In this document: in pieces, positions 3,031-24,348 of the stretch
How the letters are laid out: every line of letters starts with the position of its first letter
Position numbering within the stretch: the first letter of the stretch is position 1
IMG/VR virus record: IMGVR_UViG_3300008110_000740
Coordinates: 1-24,652 of that record
Origin: a virus
Direction: 5' to 3' (one strand)
Length of the DNA: 24,652 nucleotides
Notes under the pieces: generated by a model
Database searches by the model: none
What the model saw: only the letters and a program-made list of their open reading frames with translations
What the model was told of the DNA's origin: nothing
Program-made: the position numbers and the translations under genes

Positions 3031-4445
3031 CGTCTTCCTCCGGCAGCTTTACGTCTGTCAATTTCTTGTTGTACAGCATTTTGGAATGGATTTTGTTGTG
3101 GTGCGCCATAGACCGGCACTTCATACATTGGCGCAATCTGTGCCAACGATGGGATCGTTCTAACCGCCGTGCTTAACAACTGTCCATGTGACTCAGCTCT
3201 CAATCTTGCAGTGCGTTGAGCAGCTAGCAAACCAACACGCAATTCTCCTGCTGTCAAACTTACATCACCACCAGCAGCGCGGCGCAAAATCGCTCGTTCT
3301 GCATCAGTCAATGTACCTTGTCCACGCATTTGAGATGCTGCATCAAGTTCTTGCTGTGCAAGCCCTTGCACAACAGTGGAGGTGTTTCTAAGGATTTGAT
3401 CTGCATCAGCACCAGCAACATTTAATTGTTTGCCAACACGCAATAGTGTTGCTCTAAAGTCAGCGGCAGGACCAGTGATTGCCGTATCAAGTGCAGGCAG
3501 TATGCGATCAATGTTTGAAAGCGTTGAATTTGCAGACCGCGCCATATCTCTTGATACGGCAAGGTCTTTGACTCCCTGCTCATACGCCAACTCTAAACCT
3601 TTTTTCTCTGCATTTTGAGTAACATTCACATTGCTTGCACCTGATCTGCGAATCGCCATGATGTTTTCCATGGTGACAGGCATACCTGCCGCTTCCAATA
3701 ATCTAACTTCAGTTGGCGATGCCTCCGGCTTATCCAACTGACGTAAATTATCCAGCGTGATTGGCATATTCAATGATTTCAGAAGTCTTATTTTCTCTGG
3801 ATCAGCCTCTGGCTTATCAAGCAAACGCAAATTCTCTAAAGTAGGTTTCATACCCATTTCAGCAAGCAATTGCGTTTTCTCTGATGGCTTTGTCAACTTT
3901 AAAAGTTCTGGTATTCCTTCCTTTGCAGGCAAAGTAGACAGCATGGCGCGTTGCATTGGATTCAATACATTCATGCCACCTTGTGCTGTTCCATAACTAG
4001 GTGCGACTTGTCCAACCATCTCAGCACGCGCAACGGTAGGACCGGCTGGCAACTCTGCTGATACTGGCGCTGAAATAGCTTGCTGCGGCGTGATTTCAGC
4101 ACCGGCAGTAGGTTGACCCATCAATAAGTTTTGATAGGACTCTTGAGCAGCCACTTGACGTTTGTACTCATCGAGCTTTTGCTTGGTCAGCAATTGCTTG
4201 ATGGCGCTGTCTTGTGCGCTTTGGTAGCCTTGCTGACCAGCTTGCACGCCAGAGCCAAGAATCTGCATCAACGATCTTGGCGTTGTGCTCGGTCCACTAG
4301 ATTGACCGATAGCCATTGCAGCTTGCAGCAAGGCTTGTCTCTCCATAGCCTGCTGTTGCTGTGGCGTTAAGTAGCCTTCAAGACCACTTGCACTGCCACC
4401 GCCAAACAGATCGCCTAACAGTCCCATATCAAATGATGTAGCCAT
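3027..4445 (-). CDS. Putative internal/tail virion protein with 28-residue repeats
   Basis: A 472-residue protein. I chose the ATG at 4445 because AAGGA lies eight bases upstream; an in-frame ATG 14 codons earlier falls inside the previous gene and has no ribosome binding site. The N-terminus is Gln/Ala-rich and helical. Residues 190-273 hold three tandem 28-residue units of the pattern RLLxxxGMPxTLENLRxLDKPEA. The C-terminal half is helical and contains QMRGQGTLTDAERAILRRAAGG, a motif I know from conserved phage virion proteins of unknown function. It overlaps the downstream gene by ATGA. It probably acts with the neighbouring large proteins in DNA delivery or the tail, but this rests on context only. 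Confidence 0.82.
   Translation of the reverse strand: MATSFDMGLLGDLFGGGSASGLEGYLTPQQQQAMERQALLQAAMAIGQSSGPSTTPRSLMQILGSGVQAGQQGYQSAQDSAIKQLLTKQKLDEYKRQVAAQESYQNLLMGQPTAGAEITPQQAISAPVSAELPAGPTVARAEMVGQVAPSYGTAQGGMNVLNPMQRAMLSTLPAKEGIPELLKLTKPSEKTQLLAEMGMKPTLENLRLLDKPEADPEKIRLLKSLNMPITLDNLRQLDKPEASPTEVRLLEAAGMPVTMENIMAIRRSGASNVNVTQNAEKKGLELAYEQGVKDLAVSRDMARSANSTLSNIDRILPALDTAITGPAADFRATLLRVGKQLNVAGADADQILRNTSTVVQGLAQQELDAASQMRGQGTLTDAERAILRRAAGGDVSLTAGELRVGLLAAQRTARLRAESHGQLLSTAVRTIPSLAQIAPMYEVPVYGAPQQNPFQNAVQQEIDRRKAAGGRR
3627..3878 (-). repeat. Three tandem 84-bp coding repeats (28-aa units)
   Basis: Three consecutive 28-residue units align without gaps inside the 472-residue virion protein. 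Each has LL near its start, a GMP-like turn, T(L/M)(E/D)N(L/I) in the middle, and, in the first two, LDKPEA at the end. The first two units are closest; the third has lost the LDKPEA tail. A weaker preceding segment (PELLKLTKPSE) may be a decayed fourth unit. Confidence 0.8.
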
Positions 4446-4455
4446 GTTTATTTCC

Positions 4456-5754
4456 TTATGCAGTTCTTGGCTGCAACAGTGAGCCAATATAAGCGCCAGT
4501 TAAGCCGCCAGACAATGCACTTCCAAGTCCACTTGTGTACAGAGGTTGTGATGATGTCTGACCAACATTAGCAGGCTGCAATCCCAACGCGCCGCCAGTG
4601 ATCTGCAAACGCTCCAAAGCCGCATTGCGTGATGCATCAAGTCTTGCCTGCGCCAGTGCATCGCGCTGTGAGCCAAGTCCCAGAGATGTCTGCAAACCGG
4701 CAATATTCATTGGTCTTGCTGCGAGTCCAAGATTGGCGGCTTGTGTGTAACCAGATTGGCGCAAACCTGCGGCAGTTGTTGCAGCAGTTCTTAACGCCGC
4801 CTCATTTGTCAATGCAGACTGCACGCCTTGGCGTGAACCGCCAAAGGCTCTAGACGCTGTGGCTTGCTGTGAGTCTCTCAAAGCCTGCATCTGGCGTGAA
4901 CGCTCAATATCAGCAAGCGTGTTTTGCACCACTTGATCTTCGTATGGATTCATAAACTGTTGAATATCAGCAGCGCCAAATGGTGTCATGCCAAGGTTGT
5001 AGAGTTGGCTTTCTGCTCTGGTGTACATCTCACCAGGATCAGCGTACTGCCTTGGCGCAAGTCCGGCAGCAGTAGATTTTGCTCTCTCCAAGTTAGCCAA
5101 ATACTCGGCCTTGATCTGTGGATCAATTGACGTTGTGGCCGTCTGTGATGTTGGTGCGTTTGCAGCACTCAGACCACCGCCTAAAGCGCCAAGCAATGAT
5201 CCCGCTAATGATGGATTTGCTTTGGCGAAATCCAAGATGCCTGATCCATACCCTGCTAATGTGTCGAATACGCTTGCCATGGGAGCTGCTCCTGTTAACG
5301 AATAATTTGCCGCTGGCATCGTTGCGCCAACTGCTGTGCCTGTGTTTGAGAGTGCTGAACCAGCACCGAGTGCGGCAGCGCCAGTGCCAAGCGCAGCCAG
5401 ACTGCTACCGATTCCTGCGCCAATAGTTGATGCGCCTGCCGATGCAGCAGTAAGGCCAAGCCCACCGCCAGCCGTTAATCCAAGACCTCCACCAGCGGTA
5501 AGCCCAAGGCCGCCAGCGCCTGCTGCACCAGCAGCACCTGCTCCAGCCGCCGCACCAGCGCCTGCACCGGCTGCTGCTGTGCCAAGCAAGTATGGCGCTG
5601 CCAGATATGCACCGCCAGCAATCAATGCTGCTTTGCCTAAATCGCTTTCTACAACATCGCCAACAACATCGCCAACGCCGCCAACGACATCGCCTATCGC
5701 GTTGCCAACACCGCCAACGACATTGCCTACAAAATCTCCAACCTTACCGCCCAT
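4456..5754 (-). CDS. Gly/Ala-rich putative DNA-injection / internal virion protein
   Basis: A 432-residue protein in two parts. The N-terminal 200 residues are extremely rich in Gly, Ala and Val: VGDVVG-type repeats (residues 5-35), a membrane-like Ala/Gly tract (41-80) and a triple GGLGLTAG repeat (81-103). The C-terminal part contains FMNPYEDQVVQNTLADIERS followed by SRAFGGSRQGV. I know this motif pair from proteins of marine and freshwater podoviruses placed between tail and internal protein genes. The ATG at 5754 has AGGGGA six bases upstream. The hydrophobic repetitive N-terminus would fit a protein that inserts into the host envelope during DNA ejection; this is inferred. Confidence 0.83.
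   Translation of the reverse strand: MGGKVGDFVGNVVGGVGNAIGDVVGGVGDVVGDVVESDLGKAALIAGGAYLAAPYLLGTAAAGAGAGAAAGAGAAGAAGAGGLGLTAGGGLGLTAGGGLGLTAASAGASTIGAGIGSSLAALGTGAAALGAGSALSNTGTAVGATMPAANYSLTGAAPMASVFDTLAGYGSGILDFAKANPSLAGSLLGALGGGLSAANAPTSQTATTSIDPQIKAEYLANLERAKSTAAGLAPRQYADPGEMYTRAESQLYNLGMTPFGAADIQQFMNPYEDQVVQNTLADIERSRQMQALRDSQQATASRAFGGSRQGVQSALTNEAALRTAATTAAGLRQSGYTQAANLGLAARPMNIAGLQTSLGLGSQRDALAQARLDASRNAALERLQITGGALGLQPANVGQTSSQPLYTSGLGSALSGGLTGAYIGSLLQPRTA
5446..5514 (-). repeat. Tandem GGLGLTAG-coding repeat (about 2.9 units of 24 bp)
   Basis: Three near-identical 8-residue units (residues 81-103 of the Gly/Ala-rich protein) follow one another without interruption. The underlying 24-bp units are also very similar, which points to recent slippage or duplication. 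Confidence 0.7.
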
Positions 5755-11090: not shown

Positions 11091-12605
11091 TTAATTCAAC
11101 TTCAAAATTACGATACCAGAACCACCTGCGCCGCCTGTGCCAGTGGCAGAGCCAGCCCCACCACCGCCACCACCTAAATTAGCAGTTGCGGCACTTGCAC
11201 TTCCTGTTGTTGTTCCAGCGCCACCACCGCCAACGCCACCAGAGCCGCCAGGTCTAGTTCCAAAACTATGACCACCACCGCCACCGCCACCAGCGTAATT
11301 AGTTGATGTACCAGTAATACTTGATGCCGTACCAGCACCACCATTACCACCAGCATTTGAACCAGAATTTAAAGATTGACCAACAGCAGATGCACCACCA
11401 CCACCACCGCCAAGTCCGTAATTTGAACCATCTGTATATCCTTGACCACCAGCAAAACCTTGGCCAGAAGTACCCGCTCCACCAGTGCCGTTGTTACCGC
11501 CGCCACCGCCAGAACCGCCAGTAGACCCTGTGGTTGTTCCAGTTGCTGCGCCACCGCCACCACCACCAGTAGAAGTTATGCTAGAAAAAACAGAATTGCT
11601 ACCACTTGTGCCAACTGTATTTAATGAGTTTTGACCAGCCCCACCGCCGCCTACAGTAATGGTGTAAGAAGTTCCAGCCGTAACTGCAAATGATGTTGCT
11701 GTTTTAAATCCACCCGCGCCAGCAGCACCAAAACTTCCTCCACCACCGCCAGCTACCACAAGGTAGTCAACAGAAGTGATGCCAGTAGGTGCTGTAAATC
11801 GTGAACTTGCAGTAAATGAAATGGATGTGCCTTTTTCAACTGTGTAAGAGATGATGACAATGCCAGAACCGCCAACACCACCAGCACCGCCACCGCCAGC
11901 ACCGCCGCCGCCGCCGCCGCCACGATTTGCTGTACCAATAGAACCAGCACCAGAAGCCGCGCCATTGCCGCCACCTCCCGCACCACCCGCACCCGCAGTC
12001 CCGCCACTTGTACCACCGCCACCGCCACCACCGTAAGTGACAGATGAACCGCTGAGTAATGAGGCTGTACCTGCACCACCCGCACCACCAACATTAGAAA
12101 CTCCATTAGAGCCTACCGCACTTGCGCCGCCACCACCGCCACCGCCAGCCGTTCCAACGGCGGCTGAAGTACCGCCAGCAAACCCTTGTCCAGACGTTCC
12201 AGTGCCAGCGCTACCGCCAGCGTTAGCGCCCGCTGCGCCACCGCCAGAACCGCCAGCACCCCCTGATGCGCCAGCGCCATTGTTACCCCCGCCCTTACCA
12301 CCACCAGTGGCAGTGATTGAGTTAAATACAGAATTACCGCCTATAGTCACAGCCGCACCACCAGCGCCCACTGTTACCGTATATGTTGTGCCAGCAGTAA
12401 CGGATAGTGCAGTACCAGTTAGAAATCCTCCTGCCCCGCCACCACCAGCAAAATCAGTACCGCCACCTCCACCTCCAGCAACAACCAAATAATCTACGCT
12501 ACTTACACCAGTAGGACAACTCCAAGAACCAGTCGCAAGGAACGATTCAATGACGGTGTATCTACCACCACCACCAGCAAGGAAGAAGTTTTTTGCGGCA
12601 AACAT
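11091..12605 (-). CDS. Polyglycine-rich tail adhesin / fibre tip with duplicated domain
   Basis: A 504-residue protein dominated by glycine runs. Two copies of a roughly 240-residue module are visible (residues 18-253 and 258-504). Each starts with a beta segment ending in SVDYLVVAGGGGG, continues through TYTVTVG or SYTITVG and then Gly-rich repeats (GGGGASAVG, YGGGGGGG/YAGGGGGGG), and ends in GGSGIVI. Such Gly-rich repeats occur in phage adhesins, where polyglycine-II helices form a receptor-binding tip (as in T4-like phage S16 gp38). The cell-binding role is inferred. The ATG overlaps the previous stop by TAATG. The neighbouring chaperone-like gene supports a fibre function. Confidence 0.88.
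   Translation of the reverse strand: MFAAKNFFLAGGGGRYTVIESFLATGSWSCPTGVSSVDYLVVAGGGGGGTDFAGGGGAGGFLTGTALSVTAGTTYTVTVGAGGAAVTIGGNSVFNSITATGGGKGGGNNGAGASGGAGGSGGGAAGANAGGSAGTGTSGQGFAGGTSAAVGTAGGGGGGGASAVGSNGVSNVGGAGGAGTASLLSGSSVTYGGGGGGGTSGGTAGAGGAGGGGNGAASGAGSIGTANRGGGGGGGAGGGGAGGVGGSGIVIISYTVEKGTSISFTASSRFTAPTGITSVDYLVVAGGGGGSFGAAGAGGFKTATSFAVTAGTSYTITVGGGGAGQNSLNTVGTSGSNSVFSSITSTGGGGGGAATGTTTGSTGGSGGGGGNNGTGGAGTSGQGFAGGQGYTDGSNYGLGGGGGGASAVGQSLNSGSNAGGNGGAGTASSITGTSTNYAGGGGGGGHSFGTRPGGSGGVGGGGAGTTTGSASAATANLGGGGGGAGSATGTGGAGGSGIVILKLN
11094..12554 (-). repeat. Internal duplication of the Gly-rich adhesin module
   Basis: Two direct modules, about 12554-11847 and 11834-11094, encode the same order of landmarks: SVDYLVVAGGGGG, a Y-T-(V/I)-T-V-G strand, SGQGFAGG, GGGGGASAVG and GGSGIVI. 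They differ in loop lengths and detailed sequence, so the duplication is old or diversified. Confidence 0.8.
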
Positions 12606-22094: not shown

Positions 22095-22572
22095 TTTTCA
22101 TTCCAATCTTGATTGTCAGCAATGACTCAGGCATCTCTTCGCCCTCGCTCTCGCCGTCTTCGTCCACCACCCAAGCCGAGCAAGTACGGCTGGACGCGCA
22201 CTTGAAGTCGAATATCTCGCAGTAACCCAAGTCACCGGCATCAATCACCGCCCATGGGTCGCCCTCTTCGCCAATGCCATTTGCAATGCACTCCAGCATG
22301 GAGTCATCTTGGTTGAACGCCGCGCAGTTACCGCAACGGCTCATCTTGGCATCCTCCTCGGACACCTCCCACTCAGCCGCCATCTGCATCCAATACTGCT
22401 TATTTGGCAGCTTGGGGTTCTCCGGACCGTAGTTCGCAGAGTCAATTGCCTTGGCGCGATTCTTCAAGTTCAGCGTGATGTCTTGCGTTGCCATGGGACA
22501 ACTCTCGCCGCCGTCCTCATAGCCTTCGTCCTGATCCATGGCCTGATCCATGGTGCGTTTTAAGGTAGCCAT
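22084..22572 (-). CDS. Cysteine-rich phage protein, possible metal or Fe-S binding
   Basis: A 162-residue protein with six clustered cysteines: C80-x2-C83, C95, C118, C125 and C131 (CGNCAAF, LECI, GYCEIFDFKCASSRTCSAW). Both termini are acidic. The spacing resembles small iron-sulphur or zinc proteins, and I recall phage homologues with this pattern. Initiation at 22572 overlaps the upstream stop by TAATG. An internal ATG at 22494 (MATQDITLNL) would match the homologue start I remember and remains possible. Its position near terminase and portal genes is typical in related phages, but the role is unknown. Confidence 0.82.
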   Translation of the reverse strand: MATLKRTMDQAMDQDEGYEDGGESCPMATQDITLNLKNRAKAIDSANYGPENPKLPNKQYWMQMAAEWEVSEEDAKMSRCGNCAAFNQDDSMLECIANGIGEEGDPWAVIDAGDLGYCEIFDFKCASSRTCSAWVVDEDGESEGEEMPESLLTIKIGMKNED

Positions 22573-22766
22573 TAACGCATCCCCTTGGTCTTCATGTTCT
22601 TAGCTGTACGCGCACCGCGCATGGGCATCTTGGCTTCGGACATCGCAATGGCGATGGCCTGCTTGGGACTCTTGACTACTTTGCCGCCTTTGCCGGAGTG
22701 CAATGTGCCAGCCTTGTACTCGCCCATCACCTTGCCAACCTTCTTTGCTGCCTTGGTCATCTTCAT
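22572..22766 (-). CDS. DUF6496-like small basic phage protein
   Basis: A 64-residue Lys-rich protein with the pattern KVGKVMGEYKAGTLHSGKGG, then KSPKQAIAIAMSEAKM and a basic RGARTAKNMKTKGMR tail. This matches what I know as DUF6496, a short basic family in phages and bacteria without assigned function. The ATG at 22766 has AAGGGG six bases upstream; a second ATG two codons later is less well placed. It is the first gene after the terminase and the structured intergenic element. DNA or RNA binding is a reasonable guess from its charge. Confidence 0.82.
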   Translation of the reverse strand: MKMTKAAKKVGKVMGEYKAGTLHSGKGGKVVKSPKQAIAIAMSEAKMPMRGARTAKNMKTKGMR

Positions 22767-22790
22767 AATTTACCCCTTAAAGAATTAGGT

Positions 22791-22866
22791 GTTGGCGCAG
22801 GGAGTTCTGGGTTGAATCCAACCTAGAGCAAACTGCTTTTAGTAGCCCCAGTTACTATGCGCCAAC
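22791..22866 (+). ncRNA. Candidate 76-nt cloverleaf-like structured RNA
   Basis: The gap between the terminase and DUF6496-like genes folds compactly. A perfect 9-bp closing stem (GTTGGCGCA, 22791-22799, with 22858-22866) encloses three hairpins at 22807-22826, 22827-22837 and 22840-22857. Read on the plus strand, hairpin 1 pairs fully with one G-U, and hairpin 3 has seven pairs with one G-U and a CCCA loop. On the minus strand those wobble positions become A-C mismatches, which favours a plus-strand RNA, opposite to the genes. GGG at 22800-22802 could pair with CCC at 22847-22849 as a pseudoknot. It is not a canonical tRNA. A DNA-level function (cruciform or packaging site) is an alternative. 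Confidence 0.42.
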
Positions 22867-22875
22867 GAATTCGTA

Positions 22876-24348
22876 TTATGCAACCCTTGAGAGGTTTCTT
22901 TTCAACGGTTGCGCCCAGTTGTTGCCAGCCTTACTCCCCATCATGCCGATCACCGCATCAGATGCAAAGGTCAAACAAAACGCATCAGCCTTGTCTGGAC
23001 TCGCTAAACCCCGCTTCTTGATCTCATCTTTGCTCTCAATCTGAATCTTGCCGTTACTCGTAAACATATAACGCACGGTCGCCAACTCAGCCACCAGCAG
23101 CTCATCCTTTGGCAGCCGACAATCCCGCTGCTCCAGCCACGCCTTGGCCTTGTACCAAAGTTCAGCCTTCAGATTCCGGTAAGTACCGCCCATGGCCGGT
23201 GACTCGGCCACGTTAATCCCTCGCGCCGGTAGTTTCAACTCTCTGAGGCGGTCAACCACGCCAGCGCCAAGTCCAATGCTGTCAACCAGTATCTCGCCAG
23301 GCCGATCACCTGGCGATAGTGCTTCGTACTCGGCCACCACCGCGCCGGTCAACTGCATCAAGTCCAGATTCTTCCAAGTCTTAATCGGCTCAGTCACCGC
23401 GTTACCCCTGCGCTTGCACAGTGCAGAACGATCCGAGCCAAAGCGTGCAACGTCCAATCCCCACACCAGTGGCGCGTAAGGCGATGCCACCACATCCCGA
23501 TTCATCGCCAAGTCCAGCAATTCCATGGGGATGACGGTATCTTCGTCAGACTTCGGAAACTCACCCAACACGCGGATGCGGTAGGCATTGCTCTCCTCGC
23601 CGTAGCGCGACTTCATCTCCTCAATGTAAGCCTCAGATACGCGGGGCGAGTCGGCGCAGGACACCTTCATCGTCACCCAATCTCCCGCCAATCGGTTATG
23701 GGTGTCGTAGAAGAATCCGCTGGAACGCACAGGATTACCCAATAACAGCGTGACAGCGTTGTGGCCGGACATCGAGCCAGATGCCGCCTCAAACACCTTC
23801 TCAGGTATGCCGGATGCCTCATCCCCCACCAGCATCACATGATCACTGTGAACCCCTTGGAGCGCCTCTGGCTGCTCCGCACGCGATGTTCTGGCCGAGA
23901 TGAACGCCTCTTCGTTAGCGCCAATCACCTCAATACGGTCCTGCTTTACTTCCAACATATCAGCCAGCATCGGCGGCAGCACCTTCACCCAACGCTTAAC
24001 CTCGGCAAACAATGCGTCATACAACTGGCTGCTTGTCGGCGCAGTCACCACCACCTTCACCGGAAAGCGCAGCAGCAAGTACCAAATCATCGCCCAAGCT
24101 GATGCCGTACTCTTTCCCACACCGTGACCGCTTCGCACCGATATGCGTCTGTTGCCGGACGCGATGTGATTCAAGAATTCCACCTGCCATGGGTCAGGCT
24201 CAGTATTCAGCACCTCTCTGACAAACAGCACCGGATTATTCTTGTATAGCTTGACGAATTCGACAAAAGGGTTATTCGTCAGCAAATCATCAGAATTTTT
24301 TTTCGGGACGCTCTTCTTTGCGGCAGTGGGGGTAGGGGGTAGGGTCAT
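22876..24348 (-). CDS. terL: Terminase large subunit (ATPase and nuclease)
   Basis: A 490-residue packaging motor protein. The ATPase part shows Walker A SGHGVGKS (73-80), TAPTSSQLYD (102-111) and Walker B VMLVGDEAS (171-179, with D176 and E177). LLLGNPVRSSGFF (201-213) is the coupling region. The RNase H-like nuclease part has acidic residues D299 (GLDVARFG), D356 (ILVDSIGLGAG) and D455 (PDKADAFCL), which would bind the two metals that cut concatemeric DNA. The length is normal. The ATG at 24348 lacks a clear Shine-Dalgarno and follows a roughly 300 bp leader. No small terminase gene lies in the window, so it may lie upstream or be absent. Confidence 0.95.
   Translation of the reverse strand: MTLPPTPTAAKKSVPKKNSDDLLTNNPFVEFVKLYKNNPVLFVREVLNTEPDPWQVEFLNHIASGNRRISVRSGHGVGKSTASAWAMIWYLLLRFPVKVVVTAPTSSQLYDALFAEVKRWVKVLPPMLADMLEVKQDRIEVIGANEEAFISARTSRAEQPEALQGVHSDHVMLVGDEASGIPEKVFEAASGSMSGHNAVTLLLGNPVRSSGFFYDTHNRLAGDWVTMKVSCADSPRVSEAYIEEMKSRYGEESNAYRIRVLGEFPKSDEDTVIPMELLDLAMNRDVVASPYAPLVWGLDVARFGSDRSALCKRRGNAVTEPIKTWKNLDLMQLTGAVVAEYEALSPGDRPGEILVDSIGLGAGVVDRLRELKLPARGINVAESPAMGGTYRNLKAELWYKAKAWLEQRDCRLPKDELLVAELATVRYMFTSNGKIQIESKDEIKKRGLASPDKADAFCLTFASDAVIGMMGSKAGNNWAQPLKRNLSRVA

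Follow-up and report, generated by a model that had tools for sequence, protein, structure and literature searches.

The put RNA of phage HK022 acts at the start of the phage transcript, where it makes RNA polymerase ignore terminators, and is known from early operons. In phage phi29, an RNA (pRNA) forms a component of the DNA packaging motor, and other phages carry clusters of tRNAs or tRNA-like RNAs. LhrC and related small RNAs block Shine-Dalgarno (SD) sequences through CUCCC or UCCC loops (PMC4132741). The element described here, which we designate type A, touches on each of these systems. As a conserved, co-varying RNA that moves with the terminase genes of unrelated phages and has no counterpart in Rfam or in the sets of annotated phages and plasmids searched, it suggests a missed layer of RNA in phages of uncultured bacteria.

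The window element, its fold and its strand

The window is the whole stretch of 24,652 nucleotides that was analysed (positions 1 to 24,652 of IMG/VR virus record IMGVR_UViG_3300008110_000740). On its minus strand it carries the genes for an SU10-type portal protein and for the large terminase subunit; a glycine-rich ORF of 504 aa with a repeated architecture (11091-12605, minus strand) lies among the presumed structural genes. The gap between terL and a gene for a 64-aa DUF6496 protein contains a 76-nt inverted repeat. The features, in minus-strand reading order and with the evidence for each in brackets, are as follows.

22876-24348, minus strand: terL, large terminase subunit (PHROG phrog_2, E 6.5e-48; Pfam Terminase_6N)
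22875-22880, minus strand: weak -10-like hexamer CATAAT, overlapping the terL stop, 8 nt ahead of the putative RNA 5' end (placed like the hexamers of homologues)
22791-22866, minus strand: whole type-A RNA element, 76 nt, putative RNA 5' end at 22866 (covariance-model score, 52 distinct homologues)
22858-22866, minus strand: P1 5' arm, GTTGGCGCA, partner 22791-22799 (covariation among homologues)
22854-22856, minus strand: AGY strand of the inner 3-bp helix, partner 22803-22805 (alignment A1; conservation set in part by the search patterns)
22847-22851, minus strand: P2 5' arm, CTGGG, partner 22807-22811 (two-sided changes at five of five P2 pairs among homologues)
22812-22846, minus strand: variable tip (loop CUCCU/UCCUU in other homologues, only TTGCTCT in the window copy)
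22807-22811, minus strand: P2 3' arm, CCCAG (covariation among homologues)
22800-22806, minus strand: A + ACU + CCC strand of the asymmetric internal loop (R-RCU-CCC), facing Y and AA (alignment A1; conservation set in part by the search patterns)
22791-22799, minus strand: P1 3' arm, TGCGCCAAC (covariation among homologues)
22773-22778, minus strand: SD-like AAGGGG ahead of the DUF6496 ORF (sequence)
22572-22766, minus strand: downstream 64-aa ORF, DUF6496 (Pfam PF20106, 44.7 bits)

The inverted repeat exceeds chance and is unusually stable. As a plus-strand RNA it folds at -35.8 kcal/mol, compared with -19.4 +/- 2.8 for shuffled sequences (z -5.8; 0 of 200 shuffles as good), and as a minus-strand RNA at -27.5 (z -3.0). 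A first-pass annotation of this DNA had described a compact four-helix RNA on the plus strand, antisense to the packaging genes. The perfect 9-bp closing stem that it reported, 22791-22799 with 22858-22866, is present, as are the plus-strand internal complementarity and the G-T positions 22809/22824 and 22845/22852. Instead of the three internal hairpins claimed, the plus-strand minimum-energy fold gives two (11 bp and 7 bp) beside the closing stem. The four-helix fold also fails among the nearest relatives, where the 7-bp hairpin keeps 5/7 pairs in locus L003 and 6/7 in L053 and where the plus-strand fold changes to another one in L053, L234 and L007, whereas the homologues fold as a minus-strand rod whose core loses none of its pairs (17/17) in L003, L053 or the window. 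Covariance model R1 scores the window at 66.4 bits on the minus (terL-sense) strand versus 18.2 on the plus strand; together with the substitution pattern described below, this reverses the antisense assignment and makes the RNA sense to terL. The stability of a single sequence is thus a misleading guide to strand and tip fold. In identity and strand, the window element is almost certainly one copy of the type-A family, on the minus strand.

Known identities were sought across the window. Rfam 15 gave no match at the gathering score and, at E<=10, nothing relevant, the only hit being a spurious MIR946 match beside the element; considered as a self-cleaving RNA, the element matched none of the known ribozyme models in Rfam. 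A tRNA, with its cloverleaf, anticodon arm and T-arm, is rejected, since ARAGORN predicted 0 genes and RF00005 did not match. An integron attC site is likewise rejected because the ends GTTGGCG/CGCCAAC misfit GTTRRRY (core RYYYAAC...GTTRRRY) and the G-U pattern reflects selection at the RNA level. BLAST searches with the element in annotated phages, and with a homologue in phages and plasmids, returned short chance matches or nothing, and type A occurred in 0 of 399 host genomes of the Burkholderiales, the order of Polynucleobacter. The literature, covered in part, yielded no description of phage RNA arrays, terminase-linked RNAs or anti-SD phage small RNAs. Type A is therefore an RNA family new to Rfam, to annotated relatives and to the literature searched, though it belongs to a familiar class, the structured RNAs encoded by phages; the first-pass annotation, which knew of no described family with its proposed layout, agrees with the Rfam result.

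The type-A family and its place beside terminase genes

Homologues were gathered by pattern scans of IMG/VR, and a relaxed scan enlarged the set to 52 distinct members in phage contigs, after nine pattern matches without an extended P1 had been dropped as chance. Alignment A1 holds 20 distinct members, from which a covariance model was built. Because AGYA, CTCCC and the inner GCGC/TGCGC pairs were prescribed by the search patterns, conservation at these positions is partly imposed; P1 was filtered for pairing in the 52-member set and was unused there as evidence, whereas A1 is unfiltered. On the terL-sense strand the element, about 64-76 nt long, adopts a rod composed of a 9-bp P1, a Y/CCC loop, the AGY/RCU helix, an AM/R loop, P2 and a tip whose length and sequence differ among the A1 members. 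The third pair of the inner 3-bp helix is U-A, U-G or C-A.

In A1, 97.6% of cells are paired, compared with 27-36% when partners are slid. Two-sided changes occupy 49 cells (18.5 when shuffled), and the covariation score reaches 0.448 (0.244 shuffled); pairs showing a two-sided change at all number 8 versus 6.5 shuffled, which by itself is not unusual. Single-sided changes, read on the minus strand, produce G-U rather than A-C in P1 (9 versus 0) and in P2 (8 versus 1), and P2 of the 52-member set repeats this bias (25 versus 2). The excess of G-U over A-C fixes the strand as minus and places selection at the RNA level. The first-pass annotation had proposed compensatory changes in relatives as the test of its model: the stems do co-vary, on the strand opposite to the one it favoured, and its view that the gap downstream of terL encodes a compact structured RNA gains support from the homologues. 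Comparative analysis of the alignment shows that type A runs in the same direction as the packaging genes and that its stem, conserved in two parts, carries an asymmetric internal loop and ends in a variable tip.

A TerL homologue lies within 5 kb of type A at 37 of the 52 loci, on the same strand in 37 of 37, and these proteins represent four TerL types. PHROG confirmed all four types as TerL and, in the L083 type, TerS as well; TerS in the L244, L219 and L245 groups is named from position only, these being small genes without a family match. The element mostly lies upstream of TerS/TerL, where the terS-terL transcription unit begins, and in the window it follows terL. Of 80 TerL relatives, 53 are empty at the terL stop, where their gap measures 26-33 nt; the count refers to this site, the rest of these genomes having been searched only in part. 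Eight of the 80 carry a window-like element there (two of them with another module too), and most of the remainder have different structured modules. Some empty-site relatives are 96-97% identical in TerL, and the occurrence of near-identical terminases with and without the element marks it as an optional insert. Locus comparison thus shows type A to be an optional cassette beside the terminase genes of unrelated phages. A cos or pac signal acting in cis, the packaging signal among the earlier suggestions, is unlikely and is rejected, because most close relatives have no element at the site and unrelated terminases share it.

Upstream of the element, a TATAAT-like hexamer precedes the first P1 base by 12 nt in 8 and by 13 nt in 5 of 18 distinct upstream groups, compared with 0-4 of 18 at other offsets, and many copies begin 6 nt past a -10-like hexamer. 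This peak 12-13 nt upstream of P1 indicates that the RNA probably starts at P1, with the first base of P1 as the transcription start. A sigma-70 scan found no promoter in the window (including CATAAT at 22875-22880) or at L245. At the other end, a T-run follows P1 in one group (L245, L259, L261), which suggests a free RNA of about 75-85 nt in these loci; a strict terminator scan scored nothing at the L245 element, where the T-run is about 5 nt away. In the window, an intrinsic terminator of terL is rejected, as there is no T-run within 0-2 nt of the GC stem and no terminator call at the element. In L244, L276 and L294, TATATT occurs just past the type-A element, about 6 nt ahead of the point where the gene occupying the place of the small terminase starts its coding sequence, and this suggests a leaderless mRNA.

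Accompanying RNA modules

Arrays of further structured RNAs, some of them tRNA-like, often have type A at their head. It frequently precedes the hairpins of a second RNA-like family, type B, in which near-invariant arms, CAACACGCATGGGGATTG and CAGTCCCCAGCCGTGTTG, enclose more than 110 distinct tips; these hypervariable tips recur as exchangeable groups, and changes in the arms favour G-U over A-C (67 versus 5 cells). Type-B loci comprise L004, L007, L022, L061, L072, L080 and L083-L200 (for example, L080 at 4439-4855), and at 63 of 113 a relative of the seed-set genes, in almost every case a terminase gene, lies within 4 kb. In genome contigs the type-B pattern gave a single bacterial match, in one Polynucleobacter, the sole match among 186 genomes of the genus. 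This match is L214 (540-1900), where an array of structured modules sits inside a Polynucleobacter prophage-like region, flanked on one side by a repressor-like gene and on the other by a tRNA-like end of that prophage-like element.

Type A also precedes modules, termed X, that are closed by GTTGG/CCAAC. One X type, type G (L095, L100, L104, L136, L156, L180, L195, L196, L198 and others), resembles a tRNA in layout, and its loop-loop contact of six pairs shows covariation at the first pair (13 sequences). Type-G modules, closed by GTTGGTG...CACCAAC, have D-arm-like and T-arm-like hairpins and a variable region in place of the anticodon arm. Other X modules are recognised as tRNAs by Rfam (35-49 bits) but not by ARAGORN, and in three of them the middle is greatly enlarged; such Rfam-positive, ARAGORN-negative tRNAs with GTTGGTG/CCAAC-type closing stems lie at L098 2082-2190, L135 1921-2033, L142 6178-6281 and L027 4560-4630. 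ARAGORN identified tRNA-Met(CAT) in nine type-A loci, directly downstream of the element or array in seven. In the arrays of L072, L080, L093 and L190, the type-B 3' arm (CGTGTTGG) overlaps the 5' arm (GTTGG) of the next module, which makes the two closing stems mutually exclusive and could represent a switch or a processing order.

Taken together, these patterns lead us to propose, tentatively and with somewhat less than even confidence, that type A leads an undescribed modular RNA system of uncultured phages. Such a system would consist of promoter-driven arrays at packaging genes whose exchangeable structured RNAs (A hairpins, B hairpins and GTTGGTG/CACCAAC tRNA-like modules, including tRNAs with oversized anticodon arms) would each combine a conserved scaffold with a hypervariable tip or arm and jointly act on host translation or RNA-based defence. 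The accompanying tip-variable hairpins and tRNA-like arrays are testable candidates for phage-host RNA conflict.

Possible function and comparison with known systems

CUCCUU is the anti-Shine-Dalgarno tail of 16S rRNA. Comparison across homologues indicates that type-A tips are not random and converge on one motif: CTCCT or TCCTT occurs in 17 of 24 groups of dissimilar tips, compared with a mean of 4.5 and a maximum of 12 in 2000 shuffles. With the core constrained, the motif is predicted to be unpaired at 0.86 versus 0.49 for the rest of the tip, and it is more open in 17 of 17, even as the flanking stems differ in sequence (ATGC/GCAT, TGGA/TCCA, CTG/CAG). The SD of the next gene, GGAGC, matches a GCUCC loop in L219, L228, L247 and L312 and a GUUCC loop in L288. 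This complementarity has weak specificity, since any purine-rich SD can pair with a C-rich loop. In the clade of the window the tip has diverged to TTGCTCT, a degenerate form of the motif, so that its copy has ACUCCC and UUGCUCU as C-rich stretches where the family has the open CUCCU/UCCUU in 17 of 24 tip groups; its own tip being without CUCCU, the SD proposal rests on its relatives.

We suggest, as a possibility we rate a little below even, that type A is a leader or small RNA that masks SD sequences. With transcription starting at the first P1 base, the RNA would either lead the packaging-operon transcript at its 5' end or exist as a free small RNA. Its unpaired pyrimidine loop (CUCCUU in most members) and the second C-rich stretch, ACUCCC, would pair with SDs in cis, at the next gene, or in trans, on host or phage mRNAs, and translation would be lowered or timed. 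The window copy, as a divergent member with ACUCCC and UUGCUCU, might act weakly or function mainly as a 5' leader for the DUF6496 gene. Given the RNA-level fold, the probable 5' end at P1, the location at packaging genes and the open anti-SD loop, masking may be the simplest mechanism, a judgement we hold with the same reserve; the loop could equally be protein-binding. If the loop truly masks SDs, type A would be a phage-encoded translation switch located at the packaging operon.

The position of the element at the inferred +1, its co-directional and mostly upstream placement relative to TerS/TerL, and the structured RNA arrays or tRNA-Met that often come next would also suit a 5' leader acting in cis without SD pairing. 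A hairpin at the start of the packaging or late transcript would block decay or, as the put RNA does, termination, and allow read-through of the following hairpin or tRNA arrays. This explanation, rather unlikely in itself and nearly as likely as SD masking, leaves the conserved open CUCCUU loop unexplained and accords poorly with the window copy, located after terL, and with the L245, L259 and L261 copies, which have a T-run, point away from the adjoining gene and fit a free RNA. Swappable, optional cassettes in unrelated phages, fast-varying tips and sister modules with hypervariable tips and tRNA-like bodies would be compatible with a trans-acting decoy or anti-defence RNA, in which a host factor holds the scaffold and the tip mimics the 16S rRNA 3' tail and occupies a ribosome- or RNA-targeting defence protein. 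One array does belong to a Polynucleobacter prophage, with a repressor-like gene on one side and the tRNA end on the other; however, the tips converge on a single motif and no defence partner was identified, and we regard a decoy as distinctly improbable.

A packaging RNA bound to the portal or terminase motor, in the manner of phi29 pRNA, would explain the strong association with terminase genes across phages. It is very unlikely, as the site lacks any module in 53 of the 80 TerL relatives (their genomes elsewhere searched in part), some of them 96-97% identical in TerL, and as unrelated TerL types accompany the same RNA. The folds of single sequences, stable on both strands, might even reflect chance, a DNA-level inverted repeat or an intrinsic terL terminator without RNA function. 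That reading is hardly credible: compensatory pairs and changes to G-U rather than A-C require RNA pairing on one strand, and both T-run and terminator call are absent at the element.

Returning to SD masking and the systems it recalls, type A differs from each in a definable way. Phage tRNA clusters and tRNA-like RNAs resemble its surroundings, in that tRNA-Met(CAT) or tRNA-like modules often follow it, whereas type A itself, negative in ARAGORN and Rfam, lacks a cloverleaf, an anticodon and CCA. phi29 pRNA is likewise a phage RNA tied to DNA packaging, type A by location only; pRNA is a motor component, whereas type A is optional and common to unrelated terminases. Its likeness to HK022 put RNA is one of position only, at the putative +1 of a transcript, and type A differs in lying at packaging genes and in its conserved anti-SD loop. 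LhrC of Listeria, RsaE, SprD and RNAIII of S. aureus and FsrA of B. subtilis are small RNAs with SD-complementary pyrimidine loops (PMC4132741), and most type-A tip groups display such a loop, the window copy having only ACUCCC and UUGCUCU. Compared with these C-rich-loop RNAs, to which it shows no recognisable relationship, having no Rfam match, type A, whose target pairing is predicted, is a phage-borne, terminase-linked rod with one tip loop.
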